Of a DNA stretch of 39,205 nucleotides, positions 3,050 to 39,205 are shown piece after piece. The position numbers and the translations under genes were made by a program. Positions within the stretch are counted from its first letter, which is position 1. Every line of letters starts with the position of its first letter. Source of the stretch: Opitutales bacterium. Lineage in GTDB: Bacteria; Verrucomicrobiota; Verrucomicrobiia; Opitutales; Opitutaceae. Location of the stretch: positions 1 to 39,205 of the forward strand of contig JABITN010000077.1 in assembly GCA_018700525.1 (NCBI GenBank). Reading direction: 5' to 3'. The notes beneath the pieces are model-generated. The model was not told the origin of the DNA and did not search any database. It saw only the letters and a program-made list of their open reading frames with translations.

Positions 3050-3802
3050 ATGAAGAAAAAATTGGCATTCTTACATACCTTGTAGGCGAATATACCAGTT
3101 TTTGATCAGCTGGTTTAAGAATGCGGCTACGAGGGCGAGGTGGTTCATCGTGTTAATGAATCGGTGTTGAAGGAGCTGATGGAACTAAGCGGAATTGACA
3201 GTGGTATTGCGGATCGGATACGAGGTGAAATTTCTGAATTGAGGGATGAAGGAGCGGATGCGGTTGTTTGCAAGTGTTCGTCCACTGGGGTGGTTGCTGA
3301 GGAGATGAACGATTCCGAGACGATAGAGGTTCAGCGAATCGATCGGGCGATGGCGGATACTGCCGTGGGTATTGGAGAGCGGATAGTGTTGGCGGCTTCT
3401 TTGCCGAGCACGCTAGGGCCAACTCGTAAGTTGTTGAAATCGTCGTCGCTGTGCTTAGGCAAATCGATTTCGATCCAAGAGGTCGTGATTCCAAGTGCTT
3501 GGGCTCTGTACGAGGCGGGGGACCAGGCGGGTTATTTCGAGGAAATCGCCAAGGCGATGACGGCCGAGTTCGAGAAAGGCGATGTTATCGTGTTGGCTCA
3601 GGCTTCAATGGCGGGAGCGGTATCGTTGGTATTAAATTATCCGACACCAATTCTAAGTAGTCCGAAATTGGGGGTAGATCGGGCGGTCGAAGCATTGAGG
3701 GAATCAGTAAGATCTCAGGATCGTCACGAATGCCGATCCTGCGGGTCTTTAAAAAAATCAGGAGAATCGCTTTATTGGCTCGGTTGGTCCCAGAGTCGGT
3801 AG
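3050..3802 (+). pseudogene. Asp/Glu racemase-family gene with two early in-frame stops
   Basis: The ORF visible from GTG 3140 lacks the first beta strand of the aspartate/glutamate racemase fold. Reading upstream in the same frame gives MKKKLAFLHTL, a TAG at 3083, ANIPVFDQLV, a TAA at 3116, then ECGYEGEVVHRVNES. This is exactly the expected N-terminus, so the ATG at 3050 is probably the ancestral start and two codons have become stops. The rest looks healthy: VVCKCSSTG carries the first catalytic Cys, and DVIVLAQASMAG sits where the second half-site strand is expected, although the usual second Cys is not obvious. The last ~25 residues after VEALRES appear to be read-through, and the frame overlaps the convergent sulfatase by 31 bases. 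Translation from 3140 would give a truncated, probably inactive protein. Substrate is unknown; arylmalonate decarboxylase or hydantoin racemase relatives are alternatives. Confidence 0.7.
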
Positions 3803-30352: not shown

Positions 30353-31783
30353 ATGGATATGAAACGCATCAATCGAGCTTCGGTTTTTTGTTCTGCCTTT
30401 GTTTTGGCTCTAGTGTTATCATCAGCAACTGCGGGTGCGTCGCAGCCTAATATTCTCGTTATTATCGCCGACGATTGTACTCACAATGATCTACCGCTTT
30501 TTGGTGGGCAGAACGCGAAAACGCCTCGCATCGATGCTTTTGCGAAGCAGGGCTTAGTGTTTAATAAGGCGTATGTGAGCGAGGCTATGTGTCAGCCTTG
30601 TCGTTCGGAAATGTACTCCGGCCAGCATCCCATTCGCAATGGCGCTGCGTGGAATCATTCTGGAAGTCGTTTGGATACGAAAACACTCCCGCATTTCATG
30701 GAAGATTTGGGCTACCGAGTCGGGCTTGCAGGTAAGGTGCATGTTACGCCGAAGGCAGTGTTTCCGTTTGAGCGTGTTGAAGGGTTCGATATCAGTTGCG
30801 TTCGCTCGCCTACTAAAGAGCACGAAACGAATTCGATCGAACAATTCATGACGCGGGATGTCGATGAACCATTTTGTCTGGTGGTTGCTCTTGTCGAGCC
30901 GCATGTGCCTTGGGTTATGGGGGATCGCTCGCAATATCCGGACGATAAAATAAAGCTGCCCCCGTACATGGTGGATACGCCGACCACGCGAGATGCGTAC
31001 GCACGTTATTTGGCGGAGATAACGTACATGGACGGGCAAGTAGGCGAGATATTGGATACGCTGGAATCGACAGGAAAAGCGAATGAAACGTTGGTGCTAT
31101 TTACATCGGAGCAGGGAGCTCAGATTCCTGGGTGCAAGTGGACCAATTGGGATAATGGACTACACACGGCCTTGATAGCTCGCTGGCCAGGGCGTATCGA
31201 CGCAGGGTATCGTACGGACGGTATTGTGCAGTACGCGGATTTCGCTCCGACATTCGTTGAATTGGCCGGAGGCGATGCAGGCGATCATAATTTCGATGGA
31301 ACGAGTTTTCTTGGAACGCTCTTCGATTGTAAAAAGCCTCACCGCTCCTTTGCCTATGGCGTTCACAATAATATCCCAGAAGGACCTGCTTATCCCATTC
31401 GCACCGTTACGAATGGAGAATTTCGATACATTCGAAATTTGTCGCCCGATGAAATCTATATCGAAAAGCATTTGATGGGAGTTAAAGGGAATGGTGCCTT
31501 GAATAATCCCTACTGGAGCACCTGGGTTTTCGAGAGCGGACAGACGGAAGAAGCAGAGGCGATCGTGAAGCGCTATATCAAGCGTCCAGCCGAGGAGCTC
31601 TACCGTACGAGCGAAGACCCTTTCGAATTAACCAATTTGGTAGGCGATCCGCGGTATGCAGCGATTAAGGAGGAATTGAGCCGTGAGCTCGATTTGTGGA
31701 TGCACGATCAGAATGATCCCGGGATTCCAATGGATACTCGCGAGGCTCATACCGCAGCGAAGAAGGGGAAGCATATTTATTAA
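30353..31783 (+). CDS. Secreted sulfatase with CxPCR active-site motif
   Basis: A 476-residue family S1 sulfatase exported by an N-terminal signal (hydrophobic 10-25, cleavage near AGAS). NILVIIADDC gives the metal-binding Asp pair (40-41). The formylglycine motif is CQPCR (80-84): it keeps the CxPxR core but has Cys where Ser is usual. HSGSRL and GKVHVTP follow, and VLFTSEQGAQIPGCKWTNWDNGLHTALIARWPG carries the C-terminal metal/sulfate region, with SEQG replacing the common SDNG or SDHG. The substrate is unknown. It is first of three sulfatase genes in one direction, followed after about 20 bases by the next, so probably one transcript. Confidence 0.9.
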   Translation: MDMKRINRASVFCSAFVLALVLSSATAGASQPNILVIIADDCTHNDLPLFGGQNAKTPRIDAFAKQGLVFNKAYVSEAMCQPCRSEMYSGQHPIRNGAAWNHSGSRLDTKTLPHFMEDLGYRVGLAGKVHVTPKAVFPFERVEGFDISCVRSPTKEHETNSIEQFMTRDVDEPFCLVVALVEPHVPWVMGDRSQYPDDKIKLPPYMVDTPTTRDAYARYLAEITYMDGQVGEILDTLESTGKANETLVLFTSEQGAQIPGCKWTNWDNGLHTALIARWPGRIDAGYRTDGIVQYADFAPTFVELAGGDAGDHNFDGTSFLGTLFDCKKPHRSFAYGVHNNIPEGPAYPIRTVTNGEFRYIRNLSPDEIYIEKHLMGVKGNGALNNPYWSTWVFESGQTEEAEAIVKRYIKRPAEELYRTSEDPFELTNLVGDPRYAAIKEELSRELDLWMHDQNDPGIPMDTREAHTAAKKGKHIY

Positions 31784-31806
31784 CCTGGAAGTGCAGAAGC
31801 TTGAAA

Positions 31807-33477
31807 ATGATGAAATTGAAATTTCTGATCTGTTTGGCGTGTAGTTTCGTTTTATGCGGACAGGCGTTTGCGGTTGATCGACCGAATGTATTGTTGATTT
31901 TGGCTGATGATCTCGGGTATTCGGATCTTGGATGTTTTGGAGGGGAGATTGATACGCCGCATCTGGATGCGTTGGCTCGCGATGGATTACGGTATACGAG
32001 TTTCTATAATTCGGCGCGCTGTTGTCCGTCACGGGCATCACTCATCTCCGGGTTGTACCCGCACCAAACGGGAATCGGATCATTCGTACGAAAGAACAAA
32101 AAACCGCCCAATGGATTCGGGCCTGCCTATCAAGGGTTTTTAAACGATAATTGCGTGACGATTGCGGAGGTCTTGAAGGGATCAGGCTATTCGACTTGGA
32201 TGTCGGGCAAGTGGCATATGGGATCCGATCCTGGTCCGGTCGAGCGTGGGTTCGACCAATTCTTTGGATACACTCAAGCCCACTCGCATAGTCAGTGGGA
32301 TGCTGGTTTCTATAAACGGTTGCCGGGAACGGTTAAGCCGGAATTAAACTACTCCGAGGGCGAGTTTTACGCAACCGACGTATTCACTGATTACGCGCTT
32401 GAATTTCTGGACCAGGCGAGACGTCAAGAGGATACGCCCTGGTTTTTGTATTTAGCTCACTCGTCGCCTCATTTTCCCGTTCAAGCTCCGGCGGAGTTGA
32501 CGGATAAGTATATGGCTACCTACCGACGTGGTTGGGATGTTTTACGTAGCGAACGATTGGAGAGGATGAAGGCTATGGGTCTCGTCTCTGCGAATACGGA
32601 ATTGCCGCCGTTGGCAATGGTTCCGGTTGATCGGGACGATATTGCGAATGGCTATTCGGGGCAGTCGAACCCAGCGTGGGATTCGTTGCCGGCGAATCGG
32701 CGGGAGGACTTAGCGCGGCGGATGGCGATTTTCGCTGCGAGTGTCGAGCATGTCGACCGAGGGGTAGGAAAGATCGTGGATGATCTTAAGGCGAAGGAAG
32801 AGTTCGAGAACACGCTGATTCTTTTCACGAGTGACAATGGGGCTTGTTACGAGTGGGGTCCATTTGGTTTTGACGGGGTTTCGCGTCGGGGAGTGACGAC
32901 CTTGCACGAAGGCGAAGCGCTTCGGACGATGGGCTTGTCTGAGTCGCACCACTCATATGGGAGTGCATGGGCAAACCTGGGAAATACGCCATTGAGTCTC
33001 TACAAGCATTTTTGTCATGAAGGAGGTATTTCAAGTCCGCTAATCGCTCATTGGCCAGATGAGATAGACGGAGCGAATGCGATTCGAACCGATGTGTCGC
33101 ACGTTATGGATTTGATGCCTACGATTTTGGAAGCGACTGGTTCGACGTATCCGTCGCATTACAAAAGCAATGCAGTTCAGCCAATGGAGGGCGTGTCGCT
33201 TTTGAGTTCTTTTAACGGCAAGGATTTGGGCGAACGTACGATTGGGTTTGAACATCAGTTTGCTCGAGGATGGCGTAAAGGGAATTGGAAAATAACCTGG
33301 GGAAAGCGAATGCCCGAAGAAGCTGAATGGGAGCTCTACGATTTGTCGGTAGATCGAATTGAGCAAAACAATTTGGCTCAAAGCTACCCCGAAATGACTC
33401 GAGCTTTGGCATTTGAATGGGCAAATTGGGCGGAGCGTCTTGGAGTGCAAGTGAACAGTCCCGCTTCAAAAAAGTAG
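31807..33477 (+). CDS. Secreted arylsulfatase
   Basis: A 556-residue arylsulfatase-A-like enzyme. A signal peptide (KFLICLACSFVLCGQAFA) precedes RPNVLLILADDLGYSDLGCFGGEIDTPHLD, with metal ligands Asp34-Asp35. CCPSR (72-76) is the formylglycine motif, with Cys72 as the residue to be modified. SGKWHMG supplies the catalytic Lys/His, and LILFTSDNGACYEW the second metal site. GGISSPLIAHWP and the ELYDLSVDRIEQNNLA end match large planctomycete/verrucomicrobial arylsulfatases. The frame extends to a TTG at 31801, but ATG 31807 or 31810 is the better start. It is the middle gene of the sulfatase triad. Confidence 0.92.
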   Translation: MMKLKFLICLACSFVLCGQAFAVDRPNVLLILADDLGYSDLGCFGGEIDTPHLDALARDGLRYTSFYNSARCCPSRASLISGLYPHQTGIGSFVRKNKKPPNGFGPAYQGFLNDNCVTIAEVLKGSGYSTWMSGKWHMGSDPGPVERGFDQFFGYTQAHSHSQWDAGFYKRLPGTVKPELNYSEGEFYATDVFTDYALEFLDQARRQEDTPWFLYLAHSSPHFPVQAPAELTDKYMATYRRGWDVLRSERLERMKAMGLVSANTELPPLAMVPVDRDDIANGYSGQSNPAWDSLPANRREDLARRMAIFAASVEHVDRGVGKIVDDLKAKEEFENTLILFTSDNGACYEWGPFGFDGVSRRGVTTLHEGEALRTMGLSESHHSYGSAWANLGNTPLSLYKHFCHEGGISSPLIAHWPDEIDGANAIRTDVSHVMDLMPTILEATGSTYPSHYKSNAVQPMEGVSLLSSFNGKDLGERTIGFEHQFARGWRKGNWKITWGKRMPEEAEWELYDLSVDRIEQNNLAQSYPEMTRALAFEWANWAERLGVQVNSPASKK

Positions 33478-33508: not shown

Positions 33509-34915
33509 ATGAAAATCTTATCTATCCGCGTAATTGCTTTCTTTTTGATTACGATACTCGTTTCAATCGGAACCGTTCAAGGCGCTCGTTCAAGCGAGAA
33601 TCCCAATGTGATTATCTTTTATGTCGATGACATGGGTTATGCGGATCCGTCCTGTTTTGGGAATCCCGATATGGAGACGCCGAATATAGATCGGTTCGCC
33701 TCGGAAGGATTGAAGTTGACGAATTACTATTCGAATTCGCCGATCTGTTCTCCGTCGCGAGTGGCATTGAATACGGGACAAGCTCCGGGGCGACATAAGG
33801 TTTGGGCTCATTTCGCTTCGAAAGAGCAAAACCGCGTCCGAAATATGGTCGATTTTTTGGACCCGAGCGTTCAAACGATGGCTCGCAGTTTTAAGGCGAA
33901 TGGATACGCGACCGCGCATTTTGGGAAATGGCATATGGGGGGCGGACGAGATGTGGTCGCTCCTCTGCCTCAGGAATACGGCTTCGAGGAATCGTTGGTA
34001 ACATTCGAAGGATTGGGGGATCGGATTTTGTGGGACAAGAAAGGATTGAATGGGCAAAGCGCTAAGTTGGGTCGGGGGAATATTACGTTCGTAAAGAAGC
34101 ATGAGACGACCGGGATTTATGTGGATCGCGCGATTGATTTTATGGAGCGTCACCGTAACGAGGCTTTTTACCTCCATGTCTTTCCGAACGACGTGCATGA
34201 TGCTCATGTGCCCGATGAAGCGTGGCTTGGGAAATACGAGAAGTATTCGACTCATCCATACGTTCAGAAATTTTATGCGACCTTGGATAATATGGATCGG
34301 CAATTCGGTCGTTTAATTGATTCGGTTGATGAGATGGGCCTGAGTGAAAAGACCATGATCATATTCACGAGCGATAACGGTCCCACGGATTGGCCACGTT
34401 ATTACAAGGAAGGTTTTACGCCGCCGGGATGGACAGGTCCGTTGTACGGACGTAAGTGGAGTCTTTACGAAGGGGGAATCCGCATGCCGTTTATCGTTCG
34501 ATGGAAAGGCCAGGTTCCTGAAGGGAAAACGAATGAAACGACGATTATGGCAGCGGTGGATTTGTTTCCTTCGCTTCACGCAATGGCTGGATTGGAATTA
34601 CCGTCTGAGTGGGACTTGGATGGCCAGGATCTAAGCAAGGCGCTAGAAGGTCGCAAAATGAAGCGTAAGGAGCCTGTTTTCTGGGAATATGCGGGTAACC
34701 CAGGAATTCTAAAACCAGGTAATCCGCTTTTCGAAAGCCCGACCAATGCGATGCGCGATGGGGATTGGAAACTGTTGACCAATGACGATGGAAGCGAAAC
34801 GAAGCTGTTCAATTTGAAGCGCGATATCGGTGAATCCTCGAATTTGGCAAGGGAGTATCCTGAACGCACGGAAAGTATGAAAAAAGCGCTGCTTGATTGG
34901 CGTAACGGTTTGTAG
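33509..34915 (+). CDS. Secreted sulfatase
   Basis: A 468-residue family S1 sulfatase with a signal peptide (residues 1-25, cleavage after VQGA). NVIIFYVDDMGYADPSCFGNPDMETPNIDR holds Asp40-Asp41. CSPSR (80-84) is the classical formylglycine motif, FGKWHMGGG the Lys/His pair, and MIIFTSDNGPTDWPR the C-terminal metal site. GPLYGRKWSLYEGGIRMPFIVRWKG matches the sulfatase consensus after it. It is closer in style to N-acetylgalactosamine-6-sulfatase-like or carrageenan/fucoidan-type sulfatases than to its neighbours, so the three enzymes probably attack different positions. It is 31 bases downstream of the second sulfatase and last in the run. Confidence 0.92.
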   Translation: MKILSIRVIAFFLITILVSIGTVQGARSSENPNVIIFYVDDMGYADPSCFGNPDMETPNIDRFASEGLKLTNYYSNSPICSPSRVALNTGQAPGRHKVWAHFASKEQNRVRNMVDFLDPSVQTMARSFKANGYATAHFGKWHMGGGRDVVAPLPQEYGFEESLVTFEGLGDRILWDKKGLNGQSAKLGRGNITFVKKHETTGIYVDRAIDFMERHRNEAFYLHVFPNDVHDAHVPDEAWLGKYEKYSTHPYVQKFYATLDNMDRQFGRLIDSVDEMGLSEKTMIIFTSDNGPTDWPRYYKEGFTPPGWTGPLYGRKWSLYEGGIRMPFIVRWKGQVPEGKTNETTIMAAVDLFPSLHAMAGLELPSEWDLDGQDLSKALEGRKMKRKEPVFWEYAGNPGILKPGNPLFESPTNAMRDGDWKLLTNDDGSETKLFNLKRDIGESSNLAREYPERTESMKKALLDWRNGL

Positions 34916-35084: not shown

Positions 35085-36641
35085 TCAGTTCACCTTGTCG
35101 AGCAGCGGTATGCGGTAGCAGGCTGCTTCCAGGTGGTTTCGGACGAGTAGGTAGGGACCGACGAGCGCTGGAGGGTTCCAGCTTTTCCCTTCGAGAGCTT
35201 TGAATGTCCCCAGAACTCGCGGTTCTTCGGGCGTGGGATCGAAGAGCATTATGTCGCCGTTCTCAGCAGTTAGCAATAAGAGGTCGTTTACGAGGATCAA
35301 CTGGCCGTGACCGTAGCGTCCTTTTTTCCACGCGCGTCGTCCTGTCTCAATGTCGATGCAGGTAAACATGCCGTCATCGAGACCGTAAATGTATCCGTCT
35401 TTGAATACGAAGTTGTTGAATTTTGATTTCAGGTGAAGGCTTGTCCAAATTTCTTCGACCGATTGCTTACCTCCATTGCTTGGTGATATTTTCAGCATTG
35501 CTGCCCCAGCTCCGTAACCGCTGGACATAATTATGCGGTCTCCAGGAATTAGGACGGGAATTGCTACACGTGGATAGGAGGTCGATTTCGTCCAAGGATG
35601 TTCCCATAGGATTGCTCCGGTATTCACATTGTGGGCGTAAAGTCCGTCTCGGTTGAAAATGAGGATTTGCTTGCTGCCGGCGATTTCATGGAAAATGGGC
35701 GAACTCCAGTGGGCCTGGTCATTTCCTCCGCCCCAAATGAAGTCGCCTGATTGCTTATCGTATGCCACTAGCGACTTTCCGTCGCTGCCGCCTACGTTTA
35801 CGATGACAAGGTTCTCGTGAATCAGGGGTGAGCTTGACATGCCCCAATCCGGTAGTGGGGCATTGTGCGTTTGGAGAACATTGCTACTCCAAATCGGATT
35901 CCCCGTCGTCAATTCGAGACATTGCAATTCGCCAGTGGCTCCCATCGTGTAGAGACGATTTTCGTCAATGGTTGGCGTTGCGCGCGGCCCAATTCCTCCG
36001 AGAGGGTTGTCGTATCGAGCCGTTAGCTCGTTTTCCCAGAGTCGCTTGCCGGATAGTAAATCGTAGCAGACGACTTTTTCGAGGGGACCATCTTGCTCTT
36101 GGGTGAACGCTCGATTTCCGGAGGTGACGAATCCCGACCACGCTTCGCCAATCGGCTGTTTCCAGAGCAATTGAGGTGGTGAGCTTTCCCAATCGGGATT
36201 GAGTGAGATGTCTGATACCGTCGTGTTCCGGTTTGGGCCAAGGAATTGCGAGTAGCTAATGAAATTTGAGGGGAGGCTGAGGTCGCCTTGGGTTGATTCG
36301 GATAAAGCGATTTGCATTTCCGTTTGATGCCATCGCCAACGAAAAATAGGTATTAGATCACCAGATACACCTTCGTATTTGAATGCACTTCCGACTCCCG
36401 CTCCGATAATGATTAGTCCGGCCGCGACGCCAATACGAATTCGCCAAGGCAATCGCGATAAGGCGAGTAGCCATATCAAGGAGAGAATGGATGCGAATGA
36501 GGCGATGCCGATCGATTTCATGACAATGGCTTGGCGGCTCTCGCTTTCACTCAAAGTTACGAAAAGCAGGAAGCCGATTGTAAGCAAGGCGATTGCTTGG
36601 AGAGGCCACCAGCGGGTTGGCGAGTTGTTGGTTTTACTCAT
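35085..36641 (-). CDS. Membrane-anchored PQQ-like beta-propeller protein
   Basis: A 518-residue protein with three N-terminal membrane helices (about 13-30, 44-64 and 68-90) followed by a large periplasmic domain of PQQ-like blades. Typical blade motifs recur: YDLLSGKRLWENEL, LELTTGNPIWSSNV, YDKQSGDFIWGGGN, VNTGAILWEHPW and IDIETGRRAWKKGR. An 'SYSQFLGPNRN' segment opening the propeller is common in planctomycete/verrucomicrobial proteins found beside sulfatases and glycan enzymes. Real PQQ-binding active-site residues are not evident, so it may be structural or sensory rather than a dehydrogenase. Its ATG directly follows the TAA of the SGNH hydrolase gene (TAAATG), so the two are translationally coupled. 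Confidence 0.85.
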   Translation of the reverse strand: MSKTNNSPTRWWPLQAIALLTIGFLLFVTLSESESRQAIVMKSIGIASFASILSLIWLLALSRLPWRIRIGVAAGLIIIGAGVGSAFKYEGVSGDLIPIFRWRWHQTEMQIALSESTQGDLSLPSNFISYSQFLGPNRNTTVSDISLNPDWESSPPQLLWKQPIGEAWSGFVTSGNRAFTQEQDGPLEKVVCYDLLSGKRLWENELTARYDNPLGGIGPRATPTIDENRLYTMGATGELQCLELTTGNPIWSSNVLQTHNAPLPDWGMSSSPLIHENLVIVNVGGSDGKSLVAYDKQSGDFIWGGGNDQAHWSSPIFHEIAGSKQILIFNRDGLYAHNVNTGAILWEHPWTKSTSYPRVAIPVLIPGDRIIMSSGYGAGAAMLKISPSNGGKQSVEEIWTSLHLKSKFNNFVFKDGYIYGLDDGMFTCIDIETGRRAWKKGRYGHGQLILVNDLLLLTAENGDIMLFDPTPEEPRVLGTFKALEGKSWNPPALVGPYLLVRNHLEAACYRIPLLDKVN

Positions 36642-37277
36642 TTATTTGAAGTTTGCTTGTATGAAATCAGCAATCGCGTTCCCGATTGCAGTGGATCCTA
36701 TTTCATCGATATGCACTCCGTCGCCACTAGCGGGGGGAGTGGCCGATTTGCTTGCATCCAAAAAATGGACGCCTTGAGCGTTCGTGATTTCTTTGTAGGC
36801 AGAGGGGAAACATTTGGATTTTTCGACTGCTCCTTCGAAGAGGCGACCAAAGGGCTGATTGGTATCCACGTATTGAGGGGGCGCGATGACGAGGATTTCA
36901 GGCGTAACGCCGTTTCTTCCGCATTGGCTTTCCCGGATGGTATCGATCAACTGGCTGACTCCCATAGCCGAATCGATGGGATTCAGGTTGAGGTAGCGCT
37001 TTAGATCATTAGTACCGAGCATGATTGAAATGAAATCGATGGGACGATGCGTTTCCAGTATTATCGGCAATTGTTTGGCTCCGTTTTTGTCGGGATTCAA
37101 TGGGTCTTCCCAATGCGTCATACGACCGTTGAGAGCTTCTTCGATCACTCGAGCTGAATCGCCAAGCCGGTTTTGCAGAACACCGCCGATGCGTTGCGCG
37201 AACGGGAAACGCTCTCCATCGGATGCGGGTCGGTAGCCCCAAGTGTTCGAATCGCCGAATAGAAGGTAGTTTTTCAT
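36642..37277 (-). CDS. SGNH/GDSL hydrolase (arylesterase-like)
   Basis: A 211-residue esterase of the SGNH superfamily. LLFGDSNTWGY (5-15) contains the nucleophile Ser, EEALNGRMTHWEDP the block II Gly, IMLGTNDLK the block III Asn, and DGVHIDEIG the catalytic Asp and His. This combination (GDSNTWGY, NGR, GTNDLK) is that of rhizobial-type arylesterases. There is no signal peptide from ATG 37277; the frame runs to 37379, but the extra residues are not conserved. It ends exactly one base before the ATG of the PQQ-like propeller gene. In this context a deacetylase role on a decorated glycan is possible, but that is inference. Confidence 0.88.
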   Translation of the reverse strand: MKNYLLFGDSNTWGYRPASDGERFPFAQRIGGVLQNRLGDSARVIEEALNGRMTHWEDPLNPDKNGAKQLPIILETHRPIDFISIMLGTNDLKRYLNLNPIDSAMGVSQLIDTIRESQCGRNGVTPEILVIAPPQYVDTNQPFGRLFEGAVEKSKCFPSAYKEITNAQGVHFLDASKSATPPASGDGVHIDEIGSTAIGNAIADFIQANFK

Positions 37278-37475
37278 CTCGATATCGTAGAGAATCGAAT
37301 TGTTGCGATCCTTCAATAAGCAAAAGTCGTTTCGTCTCGGATTCTCAATTGGGAGAGAACTCTTTCCGGCGGCTGACAATGGAGTTGATATCTTTGGGAG
37401 AAAGAGCTTTGAATGTTGTTACGGATAACGGAATGCGTTTTGACTTCCCGAGCTCTAACCCCCAAAAAATAGCAC

Positions 37476-39205
37476 ATGAAGAACTTTTTTTGCGCCGTCA
37501 TTTTAATCGCCCTGCAGCCGGTCCTGATGATGGGGCAGAGCAGGATCGGTACGGGCTCGATAATGGAGCTCTATACCCAGAATTGCGCAACTTGCCATGG
37601 TCAGAACATGGAAGGTGGTTTGGGAAGCTCTCTCATTGATGACGTTTGGAAGTATGGTGCCTCGGATGATGCGATCGCCAAAGTGATTCGGGACGGAGTT
37701 CCGGAAATGGGAATGGTGCCCTGGAAAGGTGTTCTCGGCGAGGATCAGATTCGGGCTTTGGTTATTTTAATGCGTGAGCAAAAGCTATTGGCCGAAACTT
37801 CGGGAATTCTAGAGAAGGTAAAGCCTTTGGGGGGCGTCTTTTCGACGGAGCGTCATAATTTCCGTTTAGAAAAGGTTGCAGAGCTTGAAGACATTCTTTG
37901 GTCCATCTCGTTTTTACCGGACGAGTCGATCTTGATAACGCAGCGTAACGGCAAACTCTGGAACATCCGGAATGGGAAAAAGCATGAAATCAAAGGCATA
38001 CCAAAGGCTTGGGTAAAAGGTCAGGGTGGCTTACTCGAAGTGGCACCTCATCCGGACTATGAAAAGAATGGCTGGATTTATCTTTCGTTCAGCGAAAACG
38101 TCGGCACTAAGGTCGAGGGCAAAGATGCTTCTATGACGGCGGTAGTGCGCGGAAGGATTAAGAATGACAGGTGGGTCGACGAAGAAGCGATTTTTCGGGT
38201 ACCTCCAAAATTCCATGTCAGTACCGGTGGCCACTACGGCTCGCGATTCGTTTTCAAGGATGGCTATGTCTTCTTCAGTATTGGAGAGCGGCAAATTTCG
38301 GAGATGGCCCAGGACCTAACCAAGCCGAATGGTAAAGTGCATCGGCTGTTTGATGATGGCCGCGTCCCGAAGGACAATCCGTTCTATAGCAAAAAAGGTG
38401 CGTACAAGAGTATTTGGTCTTATGGGAATCGAAACCCTCAAGGTTTAGATCTGCATCCGGTTACTGGAGACATTTGGGAAACGGAACACGGCCCTCGGGG
38501 TGGGGACGAGCTTAATGTGATTCGCAAAGGTCGAAATTACGGGTGGCCCGTTATTACTTACGGTATGAACTATAATGGGAAGCCGCTTACTGATAAGACA
38601 CACATGGAAGGGATGGAACAGCCAGTGCATTATTGGCTTCCGTCTATTGCGACGGCTGGTATCGATTTTTACGAGGGAGATGGCTTTCCTGAATGGTCGG
38701 GCAATTTGCTGGTGACGGGAATGTCGGCCGAAGAGTTGCAGCGTTTGGTGATAGAGGACGGACAAGTCGTGCACAGCGAGACGATTTTGAAGAAGCAAGG
38801 ACGCGTCAGAGATGTGGCTTCGGGGCCGGATGGCATGATCTATGTTTCGCTTAACACGAGAGGACCGAATTCTGGAACGCTCTATCGAATGGTTCCGCTT
38901 GGCGAACCGCGTTGGGCGAGTTTGTTTAACGGAAGGAATCTTGATGGGTGGGAGACACGCGATGGATCGTCGACGGCGCTAGTGGATGATGGGGCGATCG
39001 TAGCGTTTCATCAGGATACGAAAGCGTTGACCTATCTTAATACGAAAAAGTCGTATGGGGATTTTATCTTCGAAGCAGAAGTAAAGGTCGTGGGCGATTT
39101 GAATTCGGGTATTGTCTTGCGTGGCGGAGGCGGATCGGTTTCGATCCGAAACGTGCGTATCATTTCGGAAAATGCCGGCGATCAAATTCAAGGGATATCC
39201 ATTCC
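37476..39205 (+). CDS. Cytochrome c / PQQ sugar dehydrogenase / DUF1080 fusion (3' end outside window)
   Basis: The frame is open from ATG 37476 to the window end, 576 codons. Residues 1-20 are a signal peptide. NCATCHG (36-42) is a CxxCH haem c site in a short class I cytochrome c domain (to about 115), with a Met-rich EMGMVPW segment as possible axial ligand. Residues about 130-465 are a soluble-glucose-dehydrogenase-like beta propeller (Yli/GSDH family): GGHYGSRFVF, SYGNRNPQGLDLHPVTGDIWETEHGPRGGDELN and GRNYGWPVI are its hallmarks and include likely PQQ/Ca ligands. From about 480 a DUF1080 (3-keto-disaccharide hydrolase) domain begins: WASLFNGRNLDGWE...YGDFIFEAEVKV...NSGIVLRGG. It likely oxidises a periplasmic sugar and passes electrons to its own haem. 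It is divergent from the SGNH gene. Confidence 0.88.
   Translation, partial: MKNFFCAVILIALQPVLMMGQSRIGTGSIMELYTQNCATCHGQNMEGGLGSSLIDDVWKYGASDDAIAKVIRDGVPEMGMVPWKGVLGEDQIRALVILMREQKLLAETSGILEKVKPLGGVFSTERHNFRLEKVAELEDILWSISFLPDESILITQRNGKLWNIRNGKKHEIKGIPKAWVKGQGGLLEVAPHPDYEKNGWIYLSFSENVGTKVEGKDASMTAVVRGRIKNDRWVDEEAIFRVPPKFHVSTGGHYGSRFVFKDGYVFFSIGERQISEMAQDLTKPNGKVHRLFDDGRVPKDNPFYSKKGAYKSIWSYGNRNPQGLDLHPVTGDIWETEHGPRGGDELNVIRKGRNYGWPVITYGMNYNGKPLTDKTHMEGMEQPVHYWLPSIATAGIDFYEGDGFPEWSGNLLVTGMSAEELQRLVIEDGQVVHSETILKKQGRVRDVASGPDGMIYVSLNTRGPNSGTLYRMVPLGEPRWASLFNGRNLDGWETRDGSSTALVDDGAIVAFHQDTKALTYLNTKKSYGDFIFEAEVKVVGDLNSGIVLRGGGGSVSIRNVRIISENAGDQIQGISI

Follow-up and report, generated by a model that had tools for sequence, protein, structure and literature searches.

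The window analysed here is a 39,205-nucleotide stretch, positions 1 to 39,205 of contig JABITN010000077.1 (forward strand) in the Opitutales bacterium assembly GCA_018700525.1. Its last gene, which continues past the end of the window, encodes a class I cytochrome c domain, a GSDH-family quinoprotein propeller and a DUF1080 domain in a single chain. There is hardly any doubt that this architecture is real, and haem c, a quinoprotein and DUF1080 are combined in Opitutales on two unrelated propeller scaffolds. This recurrence favours functional coupling of the three parts and is the strongest argument for it. We tentatively suggest that Opitutales may have built single-chain oxidative glycosidases, apparently three times on the two scaffolds, in which pyrroloquinoline quinone (PQQ) would carry out the oxidation, haem c would take up the electrons and DUF1080 would break the bond.

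Domain architecture of the window protein

The preliminary description of this DNA placed a haem c domain, a PQQ-type sugar dehydrogenase and DUF1080 in one polypeptide, and this was borne out by a Pfam search of the open reading frame (ORF). All three domains (Cytochrome_CBB3, GSDH and 3keto-disac_hyd, i.e., DUF1080) scored above their curated cut-offs, which puts the triple architecture far beyond chance. The CATCH motif also lies where it had been placed, at residues 37-41. The parts of the gene are:

37476..39203 (+), haem c-GSDH-DUF1080 gene, open part of 576 codons with no stop before the window end (ORF list); continued on C49, another contig of this genome
37476..37538 (+), hydrophobic N-terminus, about residues 1-21, probable Sec signal (inspection of the sequence)
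37563..37763 (+), Cytochrome_CBB3 (class I cytochrome c), residues 30-96 (Pfam PF13442, E 4e-12)
37584-37598 (+), CxxCH motif, here CATCH, residues 37-41 (sequence)
37713-37715 (+), Met80, probable distal haem ligand (alignment)
37896..38858 (+), GSDH propeller, Asd/YliI-like, residues 141-461 (Pfam PF07995, E 2e-120)
38232..38234 (+), His253, aligned with His144 of soluble glucose dehydrogenase (sGDH)
38430..38441 (+), R319-N320-P321-Q322, of which R, N and Q are aligned with sGDH Arg228, Asn229 and Gln231
38490..38495 (+), G339-P340, aligned with sGDH Gly247-Pro248
38913..39128 (+), start of DUF1080 (3keto-disac_hyd), residues 480-551, profile positions 2-75 of 187, the first 40% (Pfam, E 3.5e-15)
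39123..39205 (+), tail matching C49 nt 370-452, with 303 nt of DUF1080 skipped (contig comparison)

Cytochrome_CBB3 with its CxxCH is the sole N-terminal Pfam match, which indicates a haem c type rather than a haem b domain of the cellobiose dehydrogenase (CDH) type. C37, C40 and H41 (a gap in the remaining sequence) and M80 (a Leu in the remaining sequence) are each conserved in 39 of 40 aligned homologues. For the propeller, the PQQ and Ca residues of sGDH (1c9u) were mapped by alignment. The window protein has the same residue as sGDH at Gln76, His144, Arg228, Asn229, Gln231, Gly247, Pro248, Arg406 and Arg408, and so do all seven fused relatives compared. Among these, we take His144 to have a catalytic role, Arg228, Asn229 and Gln231 to belong to the PQQ site, and Gly247-Pro248 to bind Ca. 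In the alignment the haem ligands and most of the mapped PQQ and Ca positions are retained, but the position of sGDH Lys377 is not. The gene product is most likely a periplasmic quinohaemoprotein.

The genome (G000; 4.8 Mb, 268 contigs, 96.5% complete) holds the rest of the gene on contig C49. Window positions 39057-39127 are identical to the first 71 nt of C49 (reverse strand) and positions 39123-39205 are identical to C49 nt 370-452, such that 303 nt of C49 (101 in-frame codons) are missing from the window at a 5-nt GGCGG repeat. The skip affects the last 78 nt of the window and is either an assembly break or error or an in-frame deletion carried by a strain variant. The longer form was found in the complete fused relatives aligned (seven in each of two alignments, partly the same genes). 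C49 carries DUF1080 profile positions 52-186 followed by a stop, and the joined gene has 684 codons, the same length as in the relative from G111 and in L077. The early stop or frameshift that might have ended the DUF1080 segment just beyond the window does not occur, since C49 continues the gene to a full DUF1080. The continuous reading described earlier stands up to about position 39127; beyond it the bases skip 303 nt relative to C49.

A syntenic orthologue is L077, from the Opitutaceae metagenome-assembled genome (MAG) ANT-100, where the fused gene is complete on one contig (684 amino acids, ATG at 3064, TGA after 5115). The window protein and L077 are 88% identical in the haem part, 90% in the GSDH and 83% in DUF1080, and the tail of the L077 gene is similar to the tail on C49. 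A chimeric contig that joined a DUF1080 segment to a GSDH gene could be suspected because the contig stops within the gene, with 303 nt skipped in its final 78 nt, but the GSDH-DUF1080 junction (about residue 476-480) lies inside the window contig and the same join occurs on single contigs of other assemblies, including the syntenic L077, so that such an artefact is extremely improbable for the fusion and applies only to the 303-nt skip.

We modelled the orthologue L073 using 40 alignment rows (mean predicted local distance difference test score (pLDDT) 76.7, predicted template modelling score (pTM) 0.62). The propeller is well predicted, whereas the DUF1080 blocks from residue 481 mostly have pLDDT values of 45-79 and the domain placing is uncertain. 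The propeller matches 7cdy (Z 48), 7cgz and 2g8s (Z 47) at Z 47-48, with 40-42% identity to Asd/YliI (2g8s) and 7cdy. The lower-confidence DUF1080 matches BT3469 (4jqt) with Z 22.7 and a root-mean-square deviation of 2.5 over 198 residues, at 37% identity. According to Pfam, the DUF1080 domain is complete in both L073 and L077.

Two propeller scaffolds and the spread of the fusion

The second scaffold was found in genome G156 (genus g56), about 5 kb from the fused GSDH relative of that genus. The protein encoded there (L164:6779-9322) has 848 amino acids and consists of a PF01011 quinoprotein with a C-terminal DUF1080. In a search of the order with this protein, 8 of 344 genomes matched through the end of DUF1080 (E <=1e-80), namely G156, G233 (split over two contigs), G242, G223, G180, G210, G078 and G054. 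We inspected the G156 protein on L164 together with L181-L186 (from G180, G078, G223, G054, G210 and G242). All six of the latter carry PF01011, an inserted Cytochrome_CBB3 with CxxCH, and DUF1080 according to Pfam, so that six of the seven inspected proteins have the haem insert. The PF01011-fused DUF1080s form a third clade in the DUF1080 tree (7 rows, support 100/99). These PF01011 quinoproteins ending in a third-clade DUF1080, six of them with an inserted haem c, are new here. They resemble the window protein in having haem c, a PQQ propeller and DUF1080 in one chain, and differ from it in the propeller family, in the DUF1080 clade and in the haem domain, which is inserted rather than N-terminal. 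In NCBIfam the G156 propeller comes nearest to the membrane-bound glucose/quinate/shikimate group, although it scores below the cut-off of that family. The hydroxyl that quinate dehydrogenase oxidises is at C3 of a ring.

The domain order of the window protein was likewise searched for in other genomes, as had been proposed, and it recurs in relatives. In the family sample 5 of 150 genomes had a match extending into DUF1080 (G000, G111, G145, G012 and G057; E <=1e-60), and in the order sample 9 of 372 did (G000, G012, G156, G180, G195, G210, G223, G233 and G253; E <=1e-130). Only G000 of the 387 genomes in the phylum sample passed residue 489 at E <=1e-150, a threshold at which weaker fusions are missed. 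A match in G111 that ran to residue 530 through a stop codon (G111:C13) was excluded from the fused count. The fused named relatives L073-L080 are MAGs labelled Opitutales, Opitutaceae, Opitutia or Verrucomicrobia; six of them are the same contigs as those of sampled genomes, and L076 and L077 are additional. Of 42 translated ranges, four were left out of alignment A2, three for an internal stop (L088, L100 and L115) and one for being out of frame (L137); L079, which also has an internal stop, was used cut before it.

In the GSDH tree the fused state requires four changes, at least three of which are forced by well-supported branches. G012 and G057 are placed far from the other fused proteins on a branch of length 1.78. 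The G145 copy, which is broken by a frameshift, was used as found and has a long branch; its fused gene (G145:C6:40866-42408, L180) is split over two frames. The DUF1080 tree recovers a main GSDH-fused clade of 9 rows (100/98) and a separate pair formed by G012 and G057 (100/99), whose DUF1080s group with those of sulfatase, esterase and cytochrome fusions (80/96). The deep branches of this tree have weak support, and it contains some long rows. This suggests that G012 and G057 represent a second GSDH lineage carrying a different DUF1080, independent of the main lineage, which is likely, though not proven, from the sequences.

Possible roles of the fused DUF1080

By analogy with known systems, we give a tentative preference to a mechanism in which oxidation precedes cleavage. 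The GSDH propeller would bind PQQ and Ca and oxidise a saccharide, electrons from the reduced PQQ would reach the respiratory chain by way of the N-terminal haem c, and the C-terminal DUF1080, which is of the BT3469-like kind, would then cleave the oxidised (keto) glycoside. Such a protein would be a one-piece counterpart of the pair proposed for Caulobacter, the LacABC dehydrogenase and a periplasmic DUF1080 hydrolase. The steps differ in strength. Electron transfer from PQQ to haem is quite probable, and a catalytic DUF1080 is somewhat favoured. The fused DUF1080s share the stretch GYxxEID....WxGGIYxE..RxWL with BT3469, and it is kept in all seven fused sequences of alignment A1. For the DUF1080 family, a figure of PMC9765024 marks three putative active-site positions. 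The full mechanism is a possibility that we hold less firmly than either step. A one-protein oxidative glycosidase, as proposed in the preliminary description, is therefore plausible from the architecture, the ligands and the second scaffold, is weakened by the other partners of DUF1080, and is one of three live options.

Several observations weigh against this mechanism. At the position of sGDH Lys377 the window protein has Ser and the fused proteins have Ser or Ala, and at that of Asp163 the window protein has Glu and its relatives have Asp or Glu; in the alignments, the Lys377 position is variable among solved GSDH relatives too. The G156 form of the PF01011 protein is without a cytochrome match. 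When unlabelled rows are set aside, the DUF1080 tree requires just one change for the GSDH-fused DUF1080s, so that the separateness of G012 and G057 rests on the intervening rows (80/96) and on the GSDH tree. Five homologues from the same genus (G137, G078, G101, G048 and G120; 74-75% identical in GSDH) are unfused and are nested inside the main fused clade of the GSDH tree, and no DUF1080 was seen directly downstream of these five genes when their translated flanks were inspected by eye. Their state is best read as loss of DUF1080 (or transfer), and the presence of unfused sister-species proteins inside the main fused clade indicates that DUF1080 is dispensable. With these five homologues and the four changes in the GSDH tree, we rejected the idea that the fusion is fixed and essential.

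The supply of PQQ counts against the mechanism in the same way. PqqC was found in none of ten fused genomes. A positive control in nine other genomes also found none and so failed as a control; the phylum search supplied positives, with 6 of 387 genomes above the cut-off, all in family f30 and none in the order of the window, and two more below the cut-off. For PqqE, the match in the genome of the window was below the cut-off, and none of 14 control genomes passed either. Since PqqC was not found, PQQ, if used, would have to be imported. The chemistry is a further difficulty: characterised GSDH relatives oxidise aldoses, mainly at C1, and we know of no GSDH that oxidises C3. Many Gram-negatives with PQQ enzymes take up PQQ and do not make it (PMC12124388). 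The C3 hydroxyl of deoxynivalenol is reported to be oxidised by DepA in a PQQ-dependent manner (PMC10685049), which suggests that quinoproteins can attack ring secondary alcohols.

DUF1080 may instead be a carbohydrate-binding module, and the protein a bacterial counterpart of the fungal enzyme CcPDH that oxidises sugar ends at C1 while bound to a glycan. We consider this about as likely as oxidation followed by cleavage. CcPDH is built on the same three-part plan and is able to bind cellulose (PMC4332668), and the L073 propeller shows a distant relationship to AA12 enzymes (6h7t and 6jt5; Z about 31, 13-16% identity). The genome of the window has 43 DUF1080 matches (40 above the cut-off, some being pieces of one gene), and DUF1080 has varied partners there, as expected of a general accessory module. 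DUF1080 is joined to sulfatases (L175:2438-4651, and as a partial domain in L177:2787-4877) and to an esterase-like hydrolase (L176:2284-3996), and an N-terminal DUF1080 is found on a 1116-residue protein that also has a cytochrome c match, close to the other end (L174:2737-6084). It is also the most abundant exclusively periplasmic domain of Planctomycetota membrane kinases (PMC11032199), its assignments overlap with those of CBM66 in Thermogutta proteins (PMC5673643), and the apparent loss in sister species fits a binding module as well. Against a binding module stand the stretch held in common with BT3469 and the stand-alone DUF1080 proteins reported or proposed as hydrolases, i.e., BT2157 (a 3-ketotrehalose hydrolase), CCNA_01705 and THTE_1561 (PMC9007349; PMC10881899). 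The joining of quinoproteins to DUF1080 in three DUF1080 clades also exceeds expectation for a general binding role, though it is compatible with one.

The reverse order of events is the chemically most conservative option, as it needs only the known chemistry of both domains. We regard it as somewhat less likely than the other two. DUF1080 would first split a glycoside, which a separate enzyme might already have oxidised, and GSDH would oxidise the freed aldose at C1 and pass electrons to haem. Structure entries of GSDH relatives (2g8s, 1cq1) indeed bear the names aldose sugar dehydrogenase or glucose dehydrogenase, and with 43 DUF1080 matches in the genome the production of keto-sugars could be the task of another protein. 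By itself, this order leaves the repeated joining of haem c quinoproteins to DUF1080 unexplained, and no 3-dehydrogenase was identified among the neighbours examined by Pfam.

Gene neighbourhood and comparison with known systems

Upstream of the fused gene the window contains the following genes:

36642..37379 (-), GDSL lipase/acylhydrolase, syntenic in L077 (80% identity over 213 amino acids)
35085..36641 (-), PQQ_2 (BamB-like) propeller protein, syntenic in L077 (79% identity)
33509..34915 (+), sulfatase, syntenic in L077 (82% identity over the 218 amino acids compared)
30353..33477 (+), two further sulfatases, at 30353-31783 and 31801-33477 (neighbour annotation)

The order in L077 is sulfatase, PQQ_2 protein, GDSL protein and then the fused gene. 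The preliminary description set the protein beside a sulfatase cluster. At least 150 sulfatase matches were counted in the 4.8 Mb of the genome (334 candidates, of which 150 were scored), so sulfatase neighbours are expected; the context is not specific, and we rejected it as a clue to the substrate. C49 also holds a 255-amino-acid protein with a sub-threshold DUF1080 match and, downstream of the gene (L170:10579-13068, minus strand), an 830-amino-acid protein in which a sulfatase (with SGSH_C) is joined to two cytochrome c-type matches, an unusual fusion.

In genus g79, a ThuA-type gene lies directly 3' of the fused gene, in overlapping stop-to-stop frames, at all five loci examined (L073 and L165-L168). 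ThuA is linked to 3-keto sugars, and its position there speaks for oxidation followed by cleavage. Pfam identified ThuA and ankyrin repeats in L073:2846-4267, L166:7223-8656 and L167:10301-11752; L165 and L168, which are the contigs of L075 and L074, were called ThuA-type by sequence cluster. In L073, the ATG of the ThuA-type gene overlaps the TGA of the fused gene. The four loci with sufficient upstream sequence (L165-L168) have a DUF1080-like gene and an MFS-like gene nearby, as judged by Pfam for the L166 DUF1080 gene and for the L074 and L166 MFS genes, and by cluster or a similar N-terminus for the rest. On the opposing side, ThuA downstream of the fused gene was found neither in the genome of the window nor in G111. 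In G156 (g56), the haem-GSDH-DUF1080 enzyme carries ankyrin repeats of its own (L164:14282-16966); such repeats on the fused enzyme were likewise not found in the genome of the window.

Cleavage of keto-glycosides is known with NAD- or flavin-linked dehydrogenases as separate proteins, and the LacABC dehydrogenase is a GMC flavoprotein with a cytochrome c subunit. If oxidation followed by cleavage holds for the window protein, a quinohaemoprotein-DUF1080 fusion would couple glycoside cleavage directly to respiration, and the release of sugars would take place outside the cytoplasm, would need no classical glycoside hydrolase and would yield respiratory energy. It would also mean that GSDH or PF01011 quinoproteins oxidise glycosides away from C1. 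Because both steps would reside in one expressible protein, the substrate of the large DUF1080 families in this group, with 43 matches in this genome, would become testable. Among the matches listed from open-licence PubMed Central papers (titles and abstract starts), we found neither a quinoprotein-DUF1080 fusion nor a PQQ-dependent 3-oxidation of glycosides, and none of the open-licence papers mentioning DUF1080 had PQQ or sorbosone in the main text.

These matches include no paper on an architecture like that of the window protein. Asd/YliI (2g8s) and 7cdy have the same propeller fold and most of the sGDH PQQ and Ca positions, but each of them consists of one propeller of about 350 residues and lacks a haem domain, and 2g8s has Lys at the position of sGDH Lys377 where the window protein has Ser. 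BT3469 shares the DUF1080 fold (37-40% identity) but gave a weak second DUF1080-like match besides the first, and matched nothing else. CcPDH, an AA12 pyranose dehydrogenase, has the same layout of an N-terminal cytochrome, a middle PQQ propeller and a C-terminal carbohydrate-related module, and its authors suggest oxidation at C1 (PMC4332668); it differs in its CDH-type haem b and CBM1, in place of the haem c and DUF1080 of the window protein, and in the low propeller identity given above. In Caulobacter, periplasmic oxidation followed by cleavage has been proposed from fitness data for the lactose 3-dehydrogenase LacABC and the DUF1080 protein CCNA_01705 (PMC9007349). These are separate proteins with a dehydrogenase of another family, whereas the oxidoreductase domain of the window protein is a GSDH joined to its DUF1080 in one chain.

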